The position numbers and the translations under genes were made by a program. Of a DNA stretch of 64,000 nucleotides, positions 34,688 to 60,534 are shown in pieces; positions within the stretch are counted from its first letter, which is position 1; each line of letters starts with the position of its first letter. The notes below the pieces were generated by a model that saw only the letters and a program-made list of their open reading frames with translations, had not been told where the DNA came from and made no database searches. Source of the DNA: Candidatus Methanoperedentaceae archaeon GB37. Its GTDB lineage: Archaea; Halobacteriota; Methanosarcinia; Methanosarcinales; EX4572-44. The DNA is taken from assembly GCA_905171695.1 (NCBI GenBank), contig LR991653.1, forward strand, positions 1,588,150 through 1,652,149, written 5' to 3'.

Positions 34688-35335
34688 ATAGCTTACAGAA
34701 TAAATTCCAGTTTTTAACAGGATTAAAAGAGTTAATTGAGTAAAAGAATATCTTTATTCTCTGCTTTAGCGAAGAAAACACTGATTCAACCAGGCTTCTC
34801 TCTCCGAAAGGTTTGATGCTCAAATTCCAGATCCAGGCTTTTCAGTGCATCTATAAGCCAGGGAGCTTTATCAACGATGAATCTTGGCTTGTTCTCGCAG
34901 AACTTTAGCACTTCTTTGAGAAAAGACCTTGTAACAAGATAATTTCTGTTTGTATAAACTCTCATCAGAATTAACTCGTTCTTCTCAACATCTACCGCAG
35001 AATAGACATAGTACGCCTTTTTATTTGATTTAACAACTGTTTTGTCCAATGCTATAGAGTATCTTCTCTTCTTCTCTGATACAACAGGCAATTTCTCTTC
35101 AAACTTCCGTATCCAGTTCCAAACAGAGGTTTTGGAGACCGGATGAAGCCAGAGAGAGAATTCCGGCAGTCCTCCCCCAGAGAAGATGTCTGAATACAGG
35201 TCGCAACACCGAGAATCTCAACATAGAAAAGGCACCTTATTCCTCTCAAACACCTTCAACTCTTCGACAATTTCCCTTACCCTCAGCATAAATAAAAGAT
35301 GGTCTCCCGTATTTATAATTTTATGTGGACGGGTC
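34688..35335 (-). mobile_element. IS6-like transposase remnant, copy B
   Basis: The better-preserved copy. From its promoter end (GACCCGTCCACATAAAAT) it reads MLRVREIVEELKVFERN, a broken zinc/HTH region, KTSVWNWIRKFEEKLP, VVSEKKRRYSIALDKTVVKS, KKAYYVYSAVDVEKNELILM, FIVDKAPWLIDALKSLDLEF and, after a frameshift, SLVESVFSSLKQRIK with the last catalytic residue. The intact middle frame is 34786-35091. At least three frameshifts disable it. It is inverted relative to copy A and bounds the island. Confidence 0.85.
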
Positions 35336-38643: not shown

Positions 38644-41600
38644 TCACCACCTTCTCCCCACGAAACCAACCAAAATCAACAGACCAACCATGATGAGAAA
38701 TGCACCCGGAAGCTCTGGGACAGGATAGGGAGGCGCATTATCAAGCAACACGAGATAACTCTGTGTGCCTCCGGTCTTCACCTCGATACCGGTGGTGGTA
38801 TCTGTTATATTGACCGCTAAATAATCATCCTTCACTATCTCGAACGAGTCTGCTGTGATCTGGAAGTCAAATGCTCTGCTTCCATCGCCATTTATCACAG
38901 CACTGCCGCTTCCTGTGAAGATGTCACCGGAACAGTTCCCAACCGCAACCGAGAAACTCTCCCCAGATGCAAGTGGCGTTTCAAGCGTTATCCTCCCAGT
39001 CCAGACGCCCGGTGGGAACGTAAGGTCTCTCTGCGCAGGCTCGTCTGCGATCCAGAGATTGGAACTACCGCCTTCTATAGTCAGGTTGCCAGTCGGGTTG
39101 GTTGTGGTTCTGCACATGGTGCTGTCGTTGTGGAGGTACCATGCAGGGGCTGAGCTGGTGGTAGGCTCTGTTATGGTCAATGCGATATGCTGGGTGGCGG
39201 TCAGTCCTGTGCTGTCATTAACCATGAGTGTGATCCTGTGCGCTCCTGCGGAGAGGTTTTCCGTGCTGAATCGTTCGCCAGCGCCTATTACTCCATTGAT
39301 ATCCGAATACCAGACCAGTGAGAAGTTTGTCAGGATGCCGTCTTCAGGGTCTCTACCAGTGCCGTTGAACTCTACTGGCTCGCTCACATTGTATATTGAG
39401 CCGGTCTCAGGGGTATTGATACTTGCAGTTGGCGCATAGTTTGTAACGGTAAAATCCGGGTCTTCTGTTTCATCTGTTGCGCCGTCGCCGTCATGATCGA
39501 TCTCCATTGTGTACGCTGTTGTGGTCAGATTGATCGGGAGGGTTGCGGTTGTGTTCTCTGTGAGCGGGACTCTCAAATGGGCTATTGTTGTACGTGTGTC
39601 ATCTGTCTGCTGTTCGACTGTGAAGTTGAAGGATTCATTTCCAGTGATTTCTTCTGTGAGGTTTGCAACGATCTCGAATCGGTACTCTTCGGTTGTGTTG
39701 TAGAGCAGAATCGTCTCGGTTTCGTTTGGATCGGAGTAGTTGTACCTGCCGATGTAGAACGAGTCTGGTATGCCCGTCTCGACTCCGCCTGACGCGTTCA
39801 AGCCGGTGTGTCTGCCCTGCGAGTCGTAGGCGTGGAGGTGTGCTGGACATTCGAGCTCTCCTTTAACATTCGAATGCGCTCCTGTTGTGTAGAGCTGGGG
39901 GTATGCTTTACCGCTTTTTATGTAGATTATTCTGTATCCATGTTTGCATATTACCACATCTGGCACTAATGGACAAGCCCATTTCGTGTCTTTAGTAGCG
40001 CTCGGAGTTTGGATAAAACGAGTATTCGAAATCTGAACGTTATACGATTTATGAGTATGGCCGGTGAGCACCAGTTGCACACCATGATCAATACAGTAAT
40101 TTATTAAACCACATCGAAATGCCCCAATGCACATATCGTTTCCACCTTTTTCAGGACATCTATTCTCGATGCCCCCAAATCCATCGTCTCCTTCATTGAT
40201 TACTGGGTGGTGCATGAAAATGATTTTTTTAGGGTGATCCTTTATATCAGATTCAAGCAAGCGCATGTATTGATCATCTTCAAGACCAGAGCCTTCTGGA
40301 GTTAGAAAATCCACTACACTCCAATCATGTCCAGAATCCAATCCGATAAATCGGTATCCACCCTCATCGAAGTAATAATCGCCATAACCGTCATTGAGTG
40401 AAGTGTGTGGACCGTTATTCGGTTTAACAATAGCGTTGTATTTACTGAGGTCAGTTGTCTCAAAAAATTTGTTGCGTCTATCATGATTCCCTGGCGTGTG
40501 ATATATTTTAATGTCTTTGTCAATATATCGATCAAGGGTTTCCATATATCTTTTAAAAAGCTCCTCATCATCATATTCTACACAATCTCCGGTATCGAGG
40601 ATAAACGCGGGTTTTTTACTGTTCACTTCATAGAGTGTGCTACTAAATTTTTCTTGTGACTCACAATACTTTTCATATTTCAGGTTATTCCAACTCCACT
40701 TGGTTTCACAGTCGTCGTCGATGTGTGCATCCGTTATATGAGCAAAACTGAAGTCTGGTGGATTGCAATACACAGTTATTGTTTTTTCTGTTGGATTATG
40801 TTTATTATCCACTGCAAAAACTCTGATTACGTTATCACCATGCGCAAGTGGGATGTTAGTTTCCCATTTATCTGTTTCAGGATCCCACTTTGCAGTTCTT
40901 CGGTCATCTGAATTATCGAATCCACTCGAAGCAATCACAACCTTACCATAAAGGATACCACTATCGTCAGATGCAGTGCCGGATATGTCGATTCTGTATT
41001 CATCGGTATGAAAACCATCTTCAGGAGATGTAATTTCGAGTGCCGGTCCTTCAGCATCATCGTTCATGTACACATAATAATTCACCCCATCGGTTGTCGT
41101 TATGTACCCGCCCTCAAAGTCACTCTGCGGGTATCCTGATGGATTCACATACTCATCTGACACCGGAAACCCGAGGTCGCCGCCGCTTCCGCCTTCCGCG
41201 CAGTAGACCGCATCGATCGCCCCGTGCGTCTCGTAAGACTTCCCGGCATGCCCGCCGGTGCGATGCCAGTGGATGTGCCCGCCCTCGAAATCGCTGACCC
41301 TTCCTTCAGTTCTGATAGGAGACTGAGCCGCCTCTCGTTCATCGCTCGTTACCAGTCCTAGCTCATCATCGGCATAGCCAAGTTCTCTCCATTTGGCAAA
41401 TATTGCGCCGTGCACTTCAAAGACTTCTCCAGTATCAACATTGTGCTCCAGTGCCCCGCCCTCGAAGTTCTGGTACCTGAATTGCGTCCCGTGGCTTGAG
41501 ACTTCCGGAGGATGGGTGTGAATGTACGGCTCGATGTCACTTACCGGTGGACCAAGCTCAAATTCTATATCGGTTGTTGCCCTCGGACCGCCCAGATCGT

Positions 41601-42192
41601 AATATCGCTCCCAGATTGCGCCGTGAATATAATAAGCATAATTTTTATACGGGTTGTACATGATGATCCCGCCAGCGTAACCAGTTGCCCCAGGGAAATC
41701 CTGCACCAAGTAGCCCCATGCCCTGTGTACCTCTGTCGTCGGGCTGCCGAGTACATCGGCGCCGCCATTTCGATTGTAGGCGTCGGTGAAATGATTCTTG
41801 GTCGCCAAATCCGGGGCGCCCTGACCGACAGAGTAGCCGGCGGGTGGAGAATTTGAAAAATCAAAATCCCGCATCGCATCCACATCGTTCACAAAAACGT
41901 CAATAAACGTTTCCTGCTCCGAAGCATCAGTAGAATTAAGAGCATCATCTGAAGCACCGATCAAATTAAAATCCCGTGCTGCATCTGCATCGTTCACAAA
42001 AACGTCAATAAACGTTTCCTGCTGAGGAACATCAGTAGAATTAATGGCATCGCTTGGAGCGGTGTTCAACGTAAAATTCCGAACAGCATCTGCATCCTCA
42101 ACAGAAATGCTGCCGCTGGCTATTCCTGTTTGCAACTGCAATACTACTACTCCTAATATCCCCAGCAACAGGATTATTTTGTGAAGTCTCAT
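38644..42192 (-). CDS. Large exported protein: LGFP repeats, metallophosphoesterase, Ig-like domains, PEF-CTERM-like anchor
   Basis: A 1182-residue surface protein. A signal peptide (MRLHKIILLLGILGVVVLQL) is followed by two-and-a-half copies of a DADA-RDFNL/ETFIDVFVND repeat and by LGFP-like repeats (residues 130-370, for example FEGGHIHWHRTGG). A bacterial-type Ig strand region comes next. A calcineurin-like phosphoesterase follows with DAHIDD, DTGDCVEYDDE, TPGNHDRR, MHHP and LTGHTHKS. Two more Ig/PKD-like domains precede the C-terminal PVPELPGAFLIMVGLLI-VGRRW, like a PEF-CTERM archaeosortase signal. It probably acts on cell-surface phosphoesters. AAGGAGTG precedes the start. Confidence 0.88.
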   Translation of the reverse strand: MRLHKIILLLGILGVVVLQLQTGIASGSISVEDADAVRNFTLNTAPSDAINSTDVPQQETFIDVFVNDADAARDFNLIGASDDALNSTDASEQETFIDVFVNDVDAMRDFDFSNSPPAGYSVGQGAPDLATKNHFTDAYNRNGGADVLGSPTTEVHRAWGYLVQDFPGATGYAGGIIMYNPYKNYAYYIHGAIWERYYDLGGPRATTDIEFELGPPVSDIEPYIHTHPPEVSSHGTQFRYQNFEGGALEHNVDTGEVFEVHGAIFAKWRELGYADDELGLVTSDEREAAQSPIRTEGRVSDFEGGHIHWHRTGGHAGKSYETHGAIDAVYCAEGGSGGDLGFPVSDEYVNPSGYPQSDFEGGYITTTDGVNYYVYMNDDAEGPALEITSPEDGFHTDEYRIDISGTASDDSGILYGKVVIASSGFDNSDDRRTAKWDPETDKWETNIPLAHGDNVIRVFAVDNKHNPTEKTITVYCNPPDFSFAHITDAHIDDDCETKWSWNNLKYEKYCESQEKFSSTLYEVNSKKPAFILDTGDCVEYDDEELFKRYMETLDRYIDKDIKIYHTPGNHDRRNKFFETTDLSKYNAIVKPNNGPHTSLNDGYGDYYFDEGGYRFIGLDSGHDWSVVDFLTPEGSGLEDDQYMRLLESDIKDHPKKIIFMHHPVINEGDDGFGGIENRCPEKGGNDMCIGAFRCGLINYCIDHGVQLVLTGHTHKSYNVQISNTRFIQTPSATKDTKWACPLVPDVVICKHGYRIIYIKSGKAYPQLYTTGAHSNVKGELECPAHLHAYDSQGRHTGLNASGGVETGIPDSFYIGRYNYSDPNETETILLYNTTEEYRFEIVANLTEEITGNESFNFTVEQQTDDTRTTIAHLRVPLTENTTATLPINLTTTAYTMEIDHDGDGATDETEDPDFTVTNYAPTASINTPETGSIYNVSEPVEFNGTGRDPEDGILTNFSLVWYSDINGVIGAGERFSTENLSAGAHRITLMVNDSTGLTATQHIALTITEPTTSSAPAWYLHNDSTMCRTTTNPTGNLTIEGGSSNLWIADEPAQRDLTFPPGVWTGRITLETPLASGESFSVAVGNCSGDIFTGSGSAVINGDGSRAFDFQITADSFEIVKDDYLAVNITDTTTGIEVKTGGTQSYLVLLDNAPPYPVPELPGAFLIMVGLLILVGFVGRRW

Positions 42193-42257: not shown

Positions 42258-43052
42258 TCATGCTCGGTACACGAGCACCCAGCCGACACCAGTTGTGTAA
42301 GCGTAATTACCACTCACGAGTTTTATTGTGTTTTTTTGATCGAGAGTTAGGTCGTAATTGTGATAGATTACACCTTCGCGAGTGCGTATATGGTTTAAGA
42401 TACATGCACCATTTACGTATATGCAAGTATTACAGAACCATGTGCCACCCATCTTGTTATAATAATGCGAATATGAACTCTCTTTTACTGTAACCACGGA
42501 CGGTATCGCCATGTAAAACGAGTTGGACCCGCTTCCGCTCACCATGTCGACAACAACCATCATTCTGTTGGCATCAGGATGCTCAAAGTCATAAAACTTT
42601 ATGTCTGACCTGATTGTTTCGTAATCAACGCCAGTAGCAGCACATGTCTTAGATATCACTTCTTCAAGAGTTGTCATACTGCTCACATTTTCCGGCGTAG
42701 GATCCTGGATTGAGGTTATGTTCCAGCGCACGACTTTGCTCACGTTCTCTGTTCTGAGGTAGTAAGGTATGACCCACCCGTCTGCGCCGACATAGAGATG
42801 CGTGATCTGGTTATCGTCGTTTGTGATATTCACGATGAAGTAAGTGGGATTGACCTCTATTACATCTTCGATGTGCGGCAGCAGATTGTTCATTGTCGCC
42901 TGCAGGTCTATGCTTCCGCTCAACTGCACATACGCTGCTATTCCGGCATCGTCAACCGGAAACGTTGTTCCGTCCGTTGCTGATACATTCCCAGCCATAA
43001 ACAAGCACAGGAATACAGCTGTCAATACCAATACATATCTACTTTCTTCCAT
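42258..43052 (-). CDS. Exported hypothetical protein
   Basis: A 264-residue protein with a cleavable signal peptide (VLVLTAVFLCLFMAGNVSA). The mature part has many potential N-glycosylation sites (NIT, NVS) and a domain around NPTYFIVNITNDDNQITHLY and GADGWVIPYYLRTENVSKVV, then IRSDIKFYDFEHPDANRMMV. A CNTC pair could form a disulfide. An AGGAGGT lies 13 bases upstream. It is one of a run of minus-strand exported proteins. No enzymatic motif is seen. Confidence 0.75.
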   Translation of the reverse strand: MEESRYVLVLTAVFLCLFMAGNVSATDGTTFPVDDAGIAAYVQLSGSIDLQATMNNLLPHIEDVIEVNPTYFIVNITNDDNQITHLYVGADGWVIPYYLRTENVSKVVRWNITSIQDPTPENVSSMTTLEEVISKTCAATGVDYETIRSDIKFYDFEHPDANRMMVVVDMVSGSGSNSFYMAIPSVVTVKESSYSHYYNKMGGTWFCNTCIYVNGACILNHIRTREGVIYHNYDLTLDQKNTIKLVSGNYAYTTGVGWVLVYRA

Positions 43053-43726: not shown

Positions 43727-44452
43727 TTATCCCTGCATCCGTGCCAGTGTTGCTTTTATCTCGGCGATCTCGCCTCGAAGATCCTTCACTTCCTGCATGA
43801 AGAGTTCTCTGAAATCATCCCGCAGCAGATGAACTTCTTCCTTTACTTCCATAAAGCCTGTTTTCATCTCTTGTTTCACTTCTGCAAATCCTCTTCCCAT
43901 CTCTTGTTTTACTTCGCTAAAGCCTGTTTTCATCTCGCTTTTCACGTCACTGAATCCTTCTTCAGTTAATCTTATCAAAGAGTCCTGTTTCTCAAGCATT
44001 GAGTCCTGTTTCTCAAGCATTGAGTCCTGTTTCTCAAGCATCTTCTCTTGTCCCTCTGCCAATCTATTAAAGCCTGCTCTCACTGTGGTGTTCAGACTCT
44101 TGAAACCATCTTTTGTGGTATCGATCAATTCTTTCAAGAGATCTGCTGCAGTATCAAGCCGTTCATCGGTCTCGCCCTCACTGACAAGCTTGAAGAAGCC
44201 AGAGAACTCGCCTGTCGCCTCGCTGAAACTGCTCTCTATTCTCTCCACGTTTATCAGCGCATTCCTGATATCAGCATACTCTCTTAAAAGCTCAAGTCTC
44301 TCTTCTTCCCCTTCGGCAACCACCCTGACCCTGCCATCAGCCAGATTGGAGGCATACCCACTCAAACCAAGATTCCTGCCAAGCTCGATCACCCGGTCAC
44401 GATATCCTGCTCGCTGCACATCGCCTGAGACTATAAGAGTCAAACGCTTCAT
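43727..44452 (-). CDS. Acylphosphatase-domain protein with long coiled coil
   Basis: About 241 residues from MKRLTLIVSGDVQRAGYRDR. The first 90 residues are an acylphosphatase domain: the catalytic arginine is in VQRAGYRDRV (usual VQGVGFR) and the asparagine in GYASNLADGRVRVVAEG. The remainder is coiled coil, with three exact 7-residue repeats MLEKQDS encoded by a 21-bp tandem repeat (43975-44041) and several EVKQEMK/FSEVK heptads. The fusion suggests oligomerisation or tethering of an acyl-phosphate- or carbamoyl-binding domain. A canonical acylphosphatase is encoded at 53.9 kb. A longer frame to 44551 exists but runs into the duplicated region. Confidence 0.8.
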   Translation of the reverse strand: MKRLTLIVSGDVQRAGYRDRVIELGRNLGLSGYASNLADGRVRVVAEGEEERLELLREYADIRNALINVERIESSFSEATGEFSGFFKLVSEGETDERLDTAADLLKELIDTTKDGFKSLNTTVRAGFNRLAEGQEKMLEKQDSMLEKQDSMLEKQDSLIRLTEEGFSDVKSEMKTGFSEVKQEMGRGFAEVKQEMKTGFMEVKEEVHLLRDDFRELFMQEVKDLRGEIAEIKATLARMQG

Positions 44453-44466
44453 ATAGGCACTATACT

Positions 44467-44628
44467 TCAACTGAAAGCTGATAAAGGTTGGCATCGAGCC
44501 AGCGCATCCACAGCCGCCTCTATAGTCCGCGCCGCCGCTGTGCCAGCGCACGCAAGCAGCAATGGTATTGCCAGCGTGGTCATTCCAACTGCGATTCTAA
44601 AGACACACCTTCTGCTCTCCCCAATCAT
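44467..44628 (-). pseudogene. Remnant of a second secreted gene (signal peptide only)
   Basis: A 53-codon frame opening MIGESRRCVFRIAVGMTTLA, nearly identical to the signal peptide at 43301-43528, then TAAARTIEAAVDALARCQ and a stop. The body of the gene has been deleted. It lies 14 bases before the acylphosphatase-coiled-coil start and may now only supply its promoter and leader. Confidence 0.65.
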
Positions 44629-44736: not shown

Positions 44737-46081
44737 TAGGGTCTCTTTCATCTGAATCCATAATAAATTTAGATAAGCACTAAAACATCTCCATATTTTT
44801 ATCTCTAATTTCCAGCAAAGTGTGATTCAAAAATAACAAAGGAAACAATTCAAATCAAGAATTAAGTGTTAAAAATAGAAAAAGACTTATTTAATTAGTT
44901 TTCATGATTTTGAGAAGTGTGGTGGAGAGGATCAGCAGTGGAGTGATGAAAGAAGATGAATTTTGGTTTGTAGCTTTAGAGTTTGCTGAGGTTGTTGTGG
45001 AGAGAGCAAGAGGGATGTTCAAGGCGAAAGAGAAGTGTGACGACTATATCAATGGAATATTGTATTGTTGAGATTATGAGGTTCTTCTTTGGGTTATCTC
45101 TGATTCTCTTTTACGCATTTCTGAGAGACCACGGGGAGTTGAGATACATTTTAAAGCTTAAAGGTGCTTAAATCATTCTCAGATTGCGAAGATTTCAGGA
45201 AGAAATCACACAGGACAAAAGTAAGGATAGACAATATAATAAAAAGGAATGTTAAAGAAGAAGCAGACGAGATCTATGGACTGGAGACCACGGTTGTAAC
45301 AATAGTGGATTTAAACAGGCTTAGGAAAGGGAAAAAGATGATAAAGGATGGATTTTTTGATGCAGAATTCTGCCATGATTCTCTTAGAGGTTCTGAAGTA
45401 GGCTATATTGTCTGCACACTCTGATAAATCTCACGAATTTCTCGGTTGTTGAAGAACGAACCAAAGAAGGAAATCTGGGAAGAGATAGTAATATCAAATC
45501 TGGAAACTCAAAATGGGAAAATAAAGGTTATCATGGCTGATGCTGGATTCTTAGCCTACAATAATATTCTGTTACCTCTTAACTGCAGAACAATTCCTCT
45601 AATAAAAGTGAAAAGTAACATAGATGTAAAAAAGCTTAAAAAGAGAATTGAGAATTATCCAGCAAACCTATTCTGGCTTGACAGCAAATACAACAAGAAT
45701 CTATCAAGCTTACTTAAAGATTTCAGTTACGCAATAAAACAAACAGTGGAAGGGATTAACAAATACGAAAAATTCACTGAAACAAGAAGCAGAATAGAAT
45801 CTTTCTTCAAAATAGCATAAGGCAATATTTAGTTTGAAAGACTCGCATCTCTATTACCGCAAACATGCGATTACAGAAATAAAAACGATCTCCTATGCTA
45901 CACAATTGTTCTGTCAGTTCTACTTGAAGAATAGAATAAACATGGAAAGATTTATTGAAAGAATCAAGAGAAAAAACTCTAATACTGATTACACTTTACT
46001 AAGATTCTTTAATTTCTATAATGAACCGTCCCAGTGGTCATTTAATTTTACAGAGAAACTGAAAAAAAGAGACCCTATATT
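44737..46081 (+). mobile_element. Decayed DDE insertion sequence with AGGGTCTCTTT ends
   Basis: Inverted ends AGGGTCTCTTT (44739) and AAAGAGACCCT (46070-46080) bound about 1.34 kb. Inside, plus-strand frames from 44904 read MILRSVVERISSGVMKEDEF, a short membrane-like frame, KGRKMIKDGFFDAEF-type sequence, KVIMADAGFLAYNNILLPLN with a catalytic aspartate, TETRSRIESFFKIA with the glutamate, and CQFYLKNRINMERF. At least four frameshifts or stops interrupt it. IS4-superfamily affiliation is likely but the exact family is not resolved. Confidence 0.72.
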
Positions 46082-56292: not shown

Positions 56293-56394
56293 GATATAAA
56301 TAAGACGACATACTTACACAAACACAGATTTTACTCTATCAAAATATTGAGGGTCTCTCGTGTTCACCCGCATTTATGATTGGAAGGAGATAAT
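56293..56394 (+). promoter_or_regulatory. Promoter and ribosome site of the S-layer-like gene
   Basis: GATATAAATAAG (TATA box, about 56293) lies 100 bases upstream of the start. AAGGAGATAAT directly precedes the ATG at 56395, which decides that start over a TTG at 56380. The leader is about 70 bases. Confidence 0.6.
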
Positions 56395-59300
56395 ATGAGG
56401 TTCTTGAAAGATGCACTCACAGGAATAACCGTACTGATAATAATCACAGCAATAATCACACTGATCGCAATGGCAGCGCCAAGTGTCATAGACATATATC
56501 CAAGGGGAGGGGAAACGGTTAATGGCACTGTCAGGGTAAGTGCGAATGCGAGTGATGATGTGGGATTCATTGTAAAGGTAAGCTTTAATTACTCAGACGA
56601 TGGCGGGTCGAATTGGTATCCCATAGGTGATAATACAACATCCGATCCTTACACGGTTCAGTGGAACACAATAGGTCTAACTGATGGCTCAAACTACCTC
56701 ATCCGCGCCACTGCCACGAACGACACAGGCTTCACCGCATCTAACACATCAGATGCCACGTTCACGGTGCAGAACACGATGAGTAGCCCAACAGCTCCTA
56801 ATGTTACAAATGTTGTTGTTACACCTGGTGTGACAAGTGCTACGGTCTCTTTTGATGTGAATCAAAGCAATGCTCCAACCCGTATTAAATATGGAACAAC
56901 TTCTTTAGATAAATGGAGCGATTGGGATAATTCCACACCATACAGCATTGATTTAACTGGTCTTACCAATGGAACAACATATTACTACAGCATCTATGCC
57001 TATAACGCATCAGACACAACGTGTTCTACCAACACAACAATCGACACGTTCACTACCATCACCCCAACAGCTCCTAATGTTACAAATGTTGTTGTTACAC
57101 CTGGTGTGACAAGTGCTACGGTCTCTTTTGATGTGAATCAAAGCAATGCTCCAACCCGTATTAAATATGGAACAACTTCTTTAGATAAATGGAGCGATTG
57201 GGATAATTCCACACCATACAGCATTGATTTAACTGGTCTTACCAATGGAACAACATATTACTACAGCATCTATGCCTATAACGCATCAGACACAACGTGT
57301 TCTACCAACACAACAATCGACACGTTCACTACCATCACCCCAACAGCTCCTAATGTTACAAATGTTGTTGTTACACCTGGTGTGACAAGTGCTACGGTCT
57401 CTTTTGATGTGAATCAAAGCAATGCTCCAACCCGTATTAAATATGGAACAACTTCTTTAGATAAATGGAGCGATTGGGATAATTCCACACCATACAGCAT
57501 TGATTTAACTGGTCTTACCAATGGAACAACATATTACTACAGCATCTATGCCTATAACGCATCAGACACAACGTGTTCTACCAACACAACAATCGACACG
57601 TTCACCACGGGCCAGCCACCACCCAATATTACAACCCCAACATCAAATCCCCAGAATACTGAAAGCGTGGAAGGCGTGCAAACGACGTTCTACATTGAGG
57701 TTGACCAGATCGTTAACATAAGCTGGAAGCTCGATGGAAACTACAAATACACGAACACCAGTGTGAAAAATGCCACTTTCATCACAACTGCGAGTGCTGG
57801 CACGCATACTGTAACTGCTAATGCGAGTAACAACAATGGTTATGTGAACCAGACTTGGAACTGGACCGTGCACCCCAGATACTACAATACTGGTTATCGT
57901 ATCTGGGCTGCTGACGAGGACATGAATACTACGTATACGTGGACTGCGCAGAGTTTCTCAGGGTTCTTCTATGATCTGGAGGAGGATGTGAGCAGTGAGA
58001 CGATGACGATTTACCTCGACTCTAAGGATGACAGGAGTATTGAGGAGGGCGATCTGGTGTATAAGTCTGTGCCTGTCAGTGTCGAGTTTGACTATGATTC
58101 ATGGGGCAGGTACAATCTTACTGGTTTCATGGCTGAGAAGTACTTTGCAGCCTACACTGATGAGACAGAGATAGAGGATGTGGACCCTGAGAATCTGCTC
58201 TCACACGGTTATCTCTCTAAGATATTGATAGATGAAGGTGGTGAGAGTTCTGAGAAGCACACGATCACAATCGGGAGCACGCTCACACTCAAAGAGGGAT
58301 ATATGTTGAAGGCTGTTGATGTCGATGCAGAGTCTGCGATCGTCCTCTTTGTCCTCCTGAAGGACGGGGAGGAGGTTGACACAGGTGAGCCTGTCGAGGC
58401 TGGTGAGGACTACATCTACACCAAGAAGATCGGGAGCGTCAGGGATGTCCCGATCATAATCGTTCACGTCGAGAATGTCTTTCACGGGCGGGAGACCGAT
58501 GCAGCGTTTATACGCGGCGTCTTCCAGATCTCAGAGAACCCACTCGAGATCGATACTGGTGATCAGTACGGGATAATGGAGGTTAAGAGCAAGAGCAGCA
58601 GTGGGATCAGGATGGAGAACGAGGACTCGTTCGACCTTGATGAGGACAGTATCGTTGATATCATGGGCGATATCAAGTTCAAGGTGGCAGATGATTCTGA
58701 TACTCTTCGATTCGCGCCCTTCGTTGAGGGGCTTGAGAAGCTCCGTGGCACAGTCTCTCTTGGTGAAGATGCTTTTGAGTGGACGCCACTCAACTTCGAG
58801 GGATTGTACTATGATTTCGATACTGGTTTTTGGAGCGAGACTTTGAACGCCACCGAGGTTGATGTGGACGGTCGCAGTATCGATGAAGGCAAACTGGTGT
58901 ATACGACTGCCCCGGTCAGTGTCGAGTTTGACTACGCTAAATGGGGGAGGTATGATCTTGTTGGTTTCATGGGTGGGGAGTACTTTGCAGCCTACACTGA
59001 TAAGACAAACATAACTGATGTGGATCCTGAGAATCTGCTCTCTCATGGCTACCTACCCGAAGTATTGATAGATGAAGGTGGTGAGAGTTCTGAGAAGCAC
59101 ACGATCACAATCGGGAGCACGCTCACACTCAAAGAGGGATATATGTTGAAGGCTGTTGATGTCGATGCAGAGTCTGCGATCGTCCTCTTTGTCCTCCTGA
59201 AGGACGGGGAGGAGGTTGACACAGGTGAGCCTGTCGAGGCTGGTGAGGACTACATCTACACCAAGAAGATCGGGAGCGTCAGGGATGTCCCGATCATAAT

Positions 59301-60534
59301 CGTTCACGTTGAGAATGTCTTTCACGGGCGGGAGACCGATGCAGCGTTTATACGCGGCGTCTTCCAGATCTCAGAGAACCCACTCGAGGTCGATACTGGT
59401 GATGAGTACGGGATAATGGAAGTAACGAGCACAAGTCATGGAATTGAGATGAAGAACAAGGAGGAGGTGGTGGACCTTGAGGCTGGTGATATAATCGATG
59501 TGATGGGCGAGATCAGGTTTGAGGTGGCAGATGATCCTGACAGCCTGCGCTGGTATCCATTCATCATGGTCGATCTTGAGGCAGAGTCGGCGAGCAAGCT
59601 CAAGATCGATGCTCCTGAGACCGCTATAGAGCGCGATCTGATAACCATAAGAGTCACAACTGGAAGAGACGAGCCTGTGCCGGGTGCGGATGTCGAGATC
59701 GATGGCGAAGCGATCGGCACAACCGATTCAAACGGCGAAGTAACCCACACGCTCACCAGAGTTGGAACCTCAACGATCAATGCCACAAAGGTGGGTTACG
59801 AGTCGGCTTCAAAGACGATAACCGTTGAGCGGTACGTTGAGACCCAGATAAGGATCGAATCTCCAAGTGAGATCCTCCAGACCGAGGAGTTTGAACTGAG
59901 AGTAACCGTTGGGGGAGAGCCGCTATCAGGCGCGAGCATACTTGTCGACAACCATTCTGTTGGCACAACCGATACAAACGGGAGTTTCAACTACACCTTC
60001 CAGACAAGCGGCACGCACACGGTGAGAGCCGAGAAGACAGGGTACCTCGCGGCTGAGAAGACGATCAATGTGATAAAACCATACTCAAAGTTTGAAGCCA
60101 CCGCGTTCAATATTACGCCCGTGAATGTGACGATGAAAGAACCCGTCTTCATAACCGCGAATATCACCAACCGAGGGAACATACGTGGTGAGGAGAGGGT
60201 CGAACTCAAGATCAATGGTACATCTGTTGACTCGCGGAATATCACGCTTGAACCTGGTGAAGAGATCAGGGTCAACTTCACGTTCGTGGAGAGAGAGTCA
60301 CCTGGGACGTATTACGCGGAGATCTTGAATAAAGGTGGAGAGTTCCATGTGGAGAAGAAGCCGATGGGTTGGCTCCTCTATGCAGGGATTGCAACGGTCA
60401 TAGGACTCGTTCTGATCTATCTTGTCACGATGCGCCCGGGCAGAGGTGAAGGAGGTGGTAGTGGCGGCTCAGGCGCCGTCAGGGGTCGGCTCGGATCGAA
60501 GCTCTCACGGCTCAAGATGAAGATCAGAAGATGA
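56395..60534 (+). CDS. Giant S-layer-like surface protein with repeat domains
   Basis: A 1379-residue surface protein. A signal peptide (LTGITVLIIITAIITLIAMA) is followed by a Big-type Ig domain and three identical 92-residue fibronectin-III-like repeats (56791-57618). Another Ig strand region follows, then two S-layer-related duplicated domains of the Methanosarcina type, each with FDYxxWGRY and FAAYTD, spaced 280 residues apart. Two carboxypeptidase-regulatory/PEGA-like domains and a CARDB-like domain come next. It ends in a membrane helix (WLLYAGIATVIGLVLIYLV) and a glycine-rich, basic tail. It probably forms or decorates the cell envelope. Many NxS/T sites suggest heavy glycosylation. Confidence 0.92.
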   Translation: MRFLKDALTGITVLIIITAIITLIAMAAPSVIDIYPRGGETVNGTVRVSANASDDVGFIVKVSFNYSDDGGSNWYPIGDNTTSDPYTVQWNTIGLTDGSNYLIRATATNDTGFTASNTSDATFTVQNTMSSPTAPNVTNVVVTPGVTSATVSFDVNQSNAPTRIKYGTTSLDKWSDWDNSTPYSIDLTGLTNGTTYYYSIYAYNASDTTCSTNTTIDTFTTITPTAPNVTNVVVTPGVTSATVSFDVNQSNAPTRIKYGTTSLDKWSDWDNSTPYSIDLTGLTNGTTYYYSIYAYNASDTTCSTNTTIDTFTTITPTAPNVTNVVVTPGVTSATVSFDVNQSNAPTRIKYGTTSLDKWSDWDNSTPYSIDLTGLTNGTTYYYSIYAYNASDTTCSTNTTIDTFTTGQPPPNITTPTSNPQNTESVEGVQTTFYIEVDQIVNISWKLDGNYKYTNTSVKNATFITTASAGTHTVTANASNNNGYVNQTWNWTVHPRYYNTGYRIWAADEDMNTTYTWTAQSFSGFFYDLEEDVSSETMTIYLDSKDDRSIEEGDLVYKSVPVSVEFDYDSWGRYNLTGFMAEKYFAAYTDETEIEDVDPENLLSHGYLSKILIDEGGESSEKHTITIGSTLTLKEGYMLKAVDVDAESAIVLFVLLKDGEEVDTGEPVEAGEDYIYTKKIGSVRDVPIIIVHVENVFHGRETDAAFIRGVFQISENPLEIDTGDQYGIMEVKSKSSSGIRMENEDSFDLDEDSIVDIMGDIKFKVADDSDTLRFAPFVEGLEKLRGTVSLGEDAFEWTPLNFEGLYYDFDTGFWSETLNATEVDVDGRSIDEGKLVYTTAPVSVEFDYAKWGRYDLVGFMGGEYFAAYTDKTNITDVDPENLLSHGYLPEVLIDEGGESSEKHTITIGSTLTLKEGYMLKAVDVDAESAIVLFVLLKDGEEVDTGEPVEAGEDYIYTKKIGSVRDVPIIIVHVENVFHGRETDAAFIRGVFQISENPLEVDTGDEYGIMEVTSTSHGIEMKNKEEVVDLEAGDIIDVMGEIRFEVADDPDSLRWYPFIMVDLEAESASKLKIDAPETAIERDLITIRVTTGRDEPVPGADVEIDGEAIGTTDSNGEVTHTLTRVGTSTINATKVGYESASKTITVERYVETQIRIESPSEILQTEEFELRVTVGGEPLSGASILVDNHSVGTTDTNGSFNYTFQTSGTHTVRAEKTGYLAAEKTINVIKPYSKFEATAFNITPVNVTMKEPVFITANITNRGNIRGEERVELKINGTSVDSRNITLEPGEEIRVNFTFVERESPGTYYAEILNKGGEFHVEKKPMGWLLYAGIATVIGLVLIYLVTMRPGRGEGGGSGGSGAVRGRLGSKLSRLKMKIRR
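56791..57618 (+). repeat. Three tandem 276-bp repeats
   Basis: Units start at 56791, 57067 and 57343, each beginning ACAGCTCCTAATGTTACAAA. They appear identical at nucleotide level except for the final bases of the last unit. Identity at silent sites points to recent expansion or gene conversion. Copy number may vary between cells. Confidence 0.95.
58223..59420 (+). repeat. Near-identical 358-bp segments with 840-bp period
   Basis: Bases 58223-58580 and 59063-59420 match almost perfectly (for example C versus T at 58470/59310), while the sequences around them diverge. They are equivalent parts of the two S-layer domains and are probably homogenised by gene conversion. Confidence 0.92.

Follow-up and report, generated by a model that had tools for sequence, protein, structure and literature searches.

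A minus-strand gene at positions 38644-42192 of a 64,000-nucleotide (nt) stretch of the genome of Candidatus Methanoperedentaceae archaeon GB37 (contig LR991653.1; the whole stretch is referred to here as the window) joins a metallophosphoesterase to LGFP repeats and a sorting-type tail, which raises the question of whether its product is a self-contained surface enzyme or one part of a larger system. The gene was found to be a single intact open reading frame (ORF) of 1182 amino acids (aa) with an ATG start, in a genome that consists of a single contig of 1.92 Mb and is 94% complete. We lean slightly towards the second answer, namely that the window protein belongs, as member B, to a conserved pair of secreted proteins (designated here A and B), in which B would be a display module with an exchangeable enzyme and attachment. 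The parts of the protein, their order, the pairing, the exchange of the enzyme and the tail family, all as read from sequence, form the basis of this proposal. The N-terminal repeats and the upstream partner gene are features overlooked in the initial annotation, which had described a surface metallophosphoesterase with LGFP repeats and a PEF-CTERM-like tail.

The partner, gene A (42258..43052, minus strand; 264 aa, with an N-terminal leader), is located 65 nt upstream of the window gene, whose own leader is followed by repeats of ~35 aa (residues 26-118; 41839..42117, minus strand) homologous to the B genes of other A-B pairs. With A directly upstream on the same strand and B repeats after the leader, the window gene thus qualifies as part of such a pair. 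A search of 99 genomes with a six-member alignment of A returned the family in 13, the window genome included, with weak matches in G025 and G029 (genomes, loci and families are numbered G, L and f, respectively). Neighbourhoods were fetched for all matches except G025, yielding 15 A ORFs in addition to the window pair. For each of the 14 with a downstream gene, that gene lies -53 to +63 nt away on the same strand and encodes a leader and then B repeats, which are ~35 aa long and show the pattern I/V-x-V-x-(D/N)-A-(D/S); the remaining A ORF, in G029, reaches a contig end. The weak A matches of G025, the locus of which was not opened, and G299 were excluded from the A genes in this pairing count.

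A profile of 13 B genes, from which the window protein (the query) and its Argoarchaeum homologue were left out, recovered the N-terminus of the query at E 2.8e-6 (24.0 bits within the set of ORFs searched) and that of the Argoarchaeum homologue at E 2.5e-4, and the query repeat segment alone scored 27.1 bits, while no shuffle out of 2000 exceeded 9.0. Using a genome-wide B model (13 rows, i.e. 12 B genes and the query), B repeats were detected in 13 of the 99 genomes, 11 of which also have A (Fisher p 4.6e-11); as for B without A, the G017 match is 2 nt away from a contig end, and the G004 repeats belong to an LGFP ORF, with no A detected in that genome. As a more independent test, 392 genomes of the phylum were searched with an enlarged A alignment, which detected the family in 26, including three already seen; 26 loci in the 23 new genomes were obtained from 36 places (the other ten gave no locus). 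A B-model ORF is present in 14 of these 26 loci; in 12 of them, it is located downstream of A, on the same strand and within 500 nt (in L204 behind an ORF of 117 aa), the remaining two being L227, where it lies 509 nt downstream, and L218, where the A ORF was not called by the script. In L217 (G417; 721-2340), A was found inside a longer protein, the C-terminal part of which ends in WIPAIRLWA, and a similar ending closes the B protein in other loci. A contig scan returned two loci, one from Ca. Argoarchaeum and one, a 26% match, in a Moranbacteria contig.

The A family showed no significant match to Pfam (six members; best E 0.0081, with every match confined to a single member) or NCBIfam (five members; best E 0.014), nothing significant was obtained for three members against PHROGs, where a single match, to an entry without an assigned function, was found at E 0.04, and none of 34 pattern matches to A in viral contigs was confirmed. 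The A-B pair is conserved, and it may be new. Beside gene A, the window also encodes an acylphosphatase-like protein with a coiled-coil-like tail (43727-44551, minus strand), two relatives of which occur near A in L118 (G084); among the other loci compared, only the overlapping locus of its own genome (L101) matched at E 1e-5.

An indication that the enzyme is an interchangeable part comes from Ca. Argoarchaeum ethanivorans, the only named close relative found. Since the window genome belongs to the same family, it is placed near the GoM-Arc I ethane oxidisers, a clade described in excerpts of PMC9012536 as anaerobic ethane degraders. At the syntenic Argoarchaeum locus, A is 80%, the LGFP part 82% and the C-terminal domain 76% identical to their counterparts in the window, and a like tail is present, but the centre of the gene encodes a C25 peptidase (33.2 bits, cut-off 23) instead of a phosphoesterase. 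The Argoarchaeum LGFP-C25 gene is interrupted by ~680 nt that contain an antisense ORF (L037, 6412-6849; 145 aa), which appears transposase-like by eye. The B gene of G381 (family f9) leads into the start of a subtilase, while that of G084 continues for at least 2592 aa of payload. Considering the phosphoesterase of the window, the C25 peptidase of Argoarchaeum and the subtilase start of G381, the enzyme changes while the flanks are kept.

The mode of attachment appears to vary as well. A type I dockerin was found, at E <=0.01, in 8 of 12 B proteins scanned; these 12 were drawn from 15 B-type genes, and the query was among the three left out. When the first 170 aa of the gene after B were scanned for cohesins (cut-off 24.1 bits), three loci exceeded the cut-off. 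In G071 and G013, the gene directly after B starts with a cohesin (25.4 and 33.5 bits, respectively) and contains a phosphoesterase; that of G071 also contains LGFP and overlaps the dockerin-B gene by 4 nt. Another cohesin gene (37.5 bits) comes after a second A-B pair of G071. Family f5, which includes G071 and G084, is presumably Methanoperedens-like. As G071 has two adjacent genes where the window has one fused polypeptide, this arrangement gives the strongest hint that the B repeats and the LGFP-phosphoesterase act in one complex. Within the window genome, a further A-B pair (L121) exhibits a weak dockerin (19.5 bits, cut-off 22.9) and, in the next gene, a weak cohesin (12.3 bits). This pair is surrounded by a cluster of surface-type proteins (L121 1-12765; G000:C1 ~1489000-1501764), several of which have dockerins.

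Turning to the enzyme itself, the calcineurin-like metallophosphoesterase domain of the window protein (residues 482-715; 40048..40749, minus strand) matched Metallophos PF00149 at 61.4 bits (cut-off 21.5), and its metal-binding motifs are complete, with DAH at 488, GD at 535, GNHD at 568, MHH at 660 and GHTH at 711. No variation was seen at the metal-ligand positions (DxH, GD, GNHD, H and GHxH) when the query was aligned with 12 relatives. A profile of these 13 sequences was closest, among PDB entries, to Mre11-type nucleases and GpdQ-type phosphohydrolases, the latter on the assumption that 2dxl and 2zo9 are GpdQ entries. The complete active site would suit a stand-alone, nutrient-scavenging ectophosphatase that frees phosphate, with the other domains serving as a stalk and gene A being a functionally unrelated neighbour. 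The same core was indeed found joined to other parts (dockerin, DUF2341, laminin-G and carboxypeptidase-regulatory domains and, by eye, a PGF-CTERM-like tail) in genomes in which neither A nor LGFP was detected (e.g. G011, G043, G047, G079 and G094). However, this explanation leaves aside that A is accompanied, in several families, by B repeats with differing payloads, and the nine window neighbours that were scanned included no recognisable phosphate-uptake gene, the latter being weak evidence; we consider it unlikely.

The LGFP repeats (residues 119-378; 41059..41838, minus strand) matched PF08310 at 65.5 bits (cut-off 22). They account for all three LGFP places in the genome, each of which exceeds the cut-off, one only together with its neighbours. 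The closest solved chains were those of Corynebacterium glutamicum PS1 (6swz and 6sx4). An Ig-like domain (Glucodextran_B; residues 383-476; 40765..41046, minus strand) was likewise supported by Pfam (33.8 bits, cut-off 27). The combination of LGFP repeats, Ig-like domain and calcineurin-like active site in one protein, as initially annotated, is thereby confirmed, as is the LGFP assignment that a hidden Markov model scan was to check; the surprise attached to LGFP in an archaeon is weaker, given that the repeat was described in 2004 from Methanosarcina acetivorans and other genomes (excerpts of PMC2447325) and that LGFP exceeded the cut-off in 15 of 185 genomes of the order, the window genome included, with M. 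acetivorans detected as a control. LGFP in Methanosarcinales is thus not new. Among the fetched LGFP ORFs of at least 120 aa, the G071 ORF was the sole case, besides the window gene, in which LGFP and phosphoesterase matched together, and no paper combining the two was found in the open library searched. Small LGFP ORFs were observed in family f2 genomes (L091 2465-3127, L092 2528-3190 and L093 2702-3160; 152-220 aa as called), and in the two that reach 220 aa no leader is evident by eye.

The LGFP block may also be taken as pointing towards an enzyme of envelope remodelling or consortium interaction, in which LGFP would target a glycan of the archaeon or of a bacterial partner and the phosphoesterase would edit phosphodiester-linked glycans or lipids. 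The LGFP domain of MytA is reported, in excerpts of PMC11299179, to interact with the peptidoglycan-arabinogalactan wall; the GoM-Arc I clade comprises anaerobic ethane degraders (PMC9012536, same excerpts), and the alternative payload is a peptidase, all of which would be compatible with such a role. The Mre11-type and GpdQ-type profile matches do not, however, fix a substrate, and this explanation is regarded as improbable.

The remainder of the window protein is composed of three domains and a tail. The phosphoesterase is followed by a domain common to other phosphoesterase proteins of the order (residues 716-918; 39439..40047, minus strand), the best Pfam match of which reached only E 0.17, and by a PKD-like domain (residues 920-1006; 39175..39435, minus strand) that remained under the Pfam cut-off (PKD_4, 18.6 bits, cut-off 27) and whose PDB matches are collagenase domains. 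A Pfam search of the C-terminal domain (residues 1011-1150; 38743..39162, minus strand), i.e. the one shared with the peptidase-carrying Argoarchaeum protein, was without a match. Neither dockerin nor cohesin was detected in the window protein at E <=0.01 in a Pfam scan. Hydropathy exceeded 1.7 at two places only, the N-terminus and residues 1156-1182, the leader being called from hydropathy. Given its phosphoesterase, its LGFP repeats, a leader at the N-terminus and a membrane stretch at the C-terminus, the window protein is probably located at the cell surface; to this extent, the predicted surface location can be retained.

The tail (38647..38736, minus strand) comprises the motif PVPELP, a hydrophobic stretch and two arginines (RR), and would represent an exosortase-type sorting signal. 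The PEF-CTERM-like label fits it only in a loose sense: no match to TIGR03024 (PEF-CTERM) was obtained with the whole protein (E <=1) or with the tail alone (E <=10). The sole match of the query tail was to a PEP-CTERM family (E 0.2 and 0.14; 11-12 bits, cut-off 65), and no curated CTERM model reached its cut-off on it. When TIGR03024 was compared with 11 tails, one of which was a PEF-type control, two matched and the query was not among them; scattered weak matches of other tails went to PEP-CTERM, PExPT-CTERM and PEF-CTERM models. The PEP-CTERM model did not recover the query from the window genome, its matches there being a gene beside an exosortase and a single weak place. A model of the PVPELP tail built from ten tails (of 11 extracted, L141 was unused, and three further tails fell outside the pattern of the script) matched 46 places in 9 of 10 genomes, with 11 in Argoarchaeum and one, the query, in the window genome.

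Some of these tails are located close to exosortase genes, namely 3 of 11 in Argoarchaeum (G002) within ~4 kb of the gene on G002:C43 and 2 of 6 in G042 near that on G042:C81, one of the two being weak at E 0.001. Both enzymes are of the EpsH type (134.8 and 143.1 bits, respectively; cut-off 105.55) and far under the ArtC cut-off, and an EpsH-type gene was found in seven of the nine tail-bearing genomes, the window genome included. Nine proteins from 24 exosortase places were classified by NCBIfam, and the rest were compared only with the four genes of the window genome. The search for an archaeosortase proposed along with the PEF-CTERM assignment was positive, with PF09721 at three places and TIGR04178 at four in the window genome, which NCBIfam identified as ArtA (229 bits, cut-off 75), ArtB (161.9, cut-off 150), an EpsH type (L004; 154.2, cut-off 105.55) and a fourth, ArtB-like gene (137.3, below the cut-off of 150); none is ArtC (TIGR03762), the best score being 20.4 bits against a cut-off of 100 across the four TIGR04178 places of this 94% complete genome. 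An apparent disruption of the third exosortase gene was rejected, as an intact ORF of 173 aa is present and the apparent stops in the match lie upstream of it.

ArtA, ArtB and ArtC are paired with PGF, VPXXXP and PEF tails, respectively. The version of the initial annotation, in which the protein is a PEF-CTERM-kind archaeosortase substrate with a wall-binding LGFP domain, is thus mostly refuted and very improbable: it accommodates the hydrophobic stretch, the RR and the presence of archaeosortase A and B-like genes, but the query tail misses TIGR03024, there is no ArtC among the four genes although G005 and G042 have it, and tail genes neighbour EpsH-type exosortases, so that the PEF-CTERM/ArtC pairing was rejected. 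We infer instead that the query tail may be handled by the genome's own EpsH-type exosortase, which is 36-38% identical to the G002:C43 and G042:C81 enzymes and adjoins a different PEP-CTERM gene, not the query. The locus of this gene (L004, 668-2839) contains the EpsH-type exosortase, an EpsI-like gene and a VPEP-tailed protein, and represents a bacterial-type exosortase unit in an archaeon.

Returning to the reading in which the window protein is the B member of an A-B pair, the following mode of action is proposed. Following export and anchoring of the protein, the N-terminal repeats would hold protein A, the LGFP block would, by analogy with MytA, bind a glycan of the envelope or matrix, the two-metal phosphoesterase would hydrolyse an extracellular phosphodiester or phosphomonoester, and the tail would be processed by the EpsH-type exosortase. 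The enzyme would be an exchangeable payload (a phosphoesterase here, a C25 peptidase in Argoarchaeum and the start of a subtilase in the f9 genome), and attachment would be variable too, by dockerin and cohesin or by a sorting tail. More broadly, we propose tentatively that A and B could together form the heart of a two-component surface-display system, so far undescribed, in archaea related to methane and alkane oxidisers, in which B presents an interchangeable phosphoesterase, C25 or S8 peptidase, or dockerin, LGFP is one targeting option, and orthologous loci swap the catalytic domain but retain the flanks on either side of it, in the manner of cassette-type surface or effector proteins.

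Several observations weigh against these proposals. Structure prediction of gene A from two sequences gave a mean predicted local distance difference test (pLDDT) score of 36, and that of the phosphoesterase from one sequence was uninformative (mean pLDDT 41); owing to these low values, the role given to A is a guess. The co-occurrence test of A and B is not independent, as the B model was built almost entirely from neighbours of A and the genomes are related. Moreover, the B repeats of the query are themselves divergent, and 12 of the 26 A loci of the phylum set are without a B-model match: A is without any downstream ORF in L209, L210, L220 and L221, the downstream protein has similar-looking repeats (by eye) below the threshold in L212, L216, L223 and L228, A belongs to a longer protein in L217, and nothing B-like is located near A in L222, L224 and L225, the last of which is a weak A match. 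With regard to attachment, 4 of the 12 scanned B proteins have no dockerin at E 0.01, and nor does the query; the G071 cohesin is borderline (25.4 against 24.1 bits in the 170-aa slice) and absent at E 0.01 in a whole-protein scan, and its binding to the G071 dockerin is assumed. As for the tail, its family has a single place in the window genome, only a minority of tails lie near an exosortase (3 of 11 in G002 and 2 of 6 in G042), and the drafts G004 and G054 (61% and 78% complete, respectively) showed ArtA-like genes only and no EpsH type.

Elsewhere in the window, an S-layer protein of 1384 aa is encoded at 56380-60534 (plus strand); it has two stretches that match PF07752 (522 bits), as well as carboxypeptidase-regulatory-like domains. 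The locus is flanked by short ORFs at 34786-35091 (minus strand) and 45446-45820 (plus strand), which resemble transposase fragments by eye.

Archaea that oxidise methane or alkanes form tight consortia, and the role of their numerous dockerin and cohesin proteins is not settled. A gene pair that recurs with a swappable enzyme and anchor would provide a concrete unit of their outer layer, in which related loci are suggested to use cohesin/dockerin contact, fusion or an exosortase-type tail as alternative solutions, and candidate archaeal substrates for bacterial-type exosortases can be named. The A-B pair with its exchangeable payload is, in this respect, a more interesting unit than the phosphoesterase alone.

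Known systems share parts of this arrangement. Anaerobic methanotrophic archaea (ANME) are described as having many noncellulosomal dockerin and cohesin proteins with unclear roles (PMC9012536 section 32; PMC5244752). The relatives of B resemble these in carrying dockerins (8 of 12), and a cohesin gene then follows in three A-B loci, whereas the window protein has neither dockerin nor cohesin; the A family and the A-B pair are not described in the excerpts of these two texts considered here. Calcineurin-like phosphoesterases of the Mre11 and GpdQ types have the ligand set DxH, GD, GNHD, H and GHxH in common with the window protein, which, unlike them, is multidomain and predicted to be exported. 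In keeping with exosortase and archaeosortase systems, the query has a PVPELP tail, a hydrophobic stretch and a basic end, and its genome encodes an EpsH-type enzyme; it differs in that the tail scores under every CTERM cut-off, the enzyme is of a bacterial type in an archaeon, and one such tail was found in the genome. Finally, Corynebacterium MytA and PS1 and surface proteins of M. acetivorans have LGFP repeats on an exported enzyme, as does the window protein, which, compared with MytA and PS1, has a phosphoesterase in place of a mycoloyltransferase and, in addition, N-terminal repeats, a partner gene and a sorting-type tail, and is thus a novel variant on a known surface-enzyme architecture.

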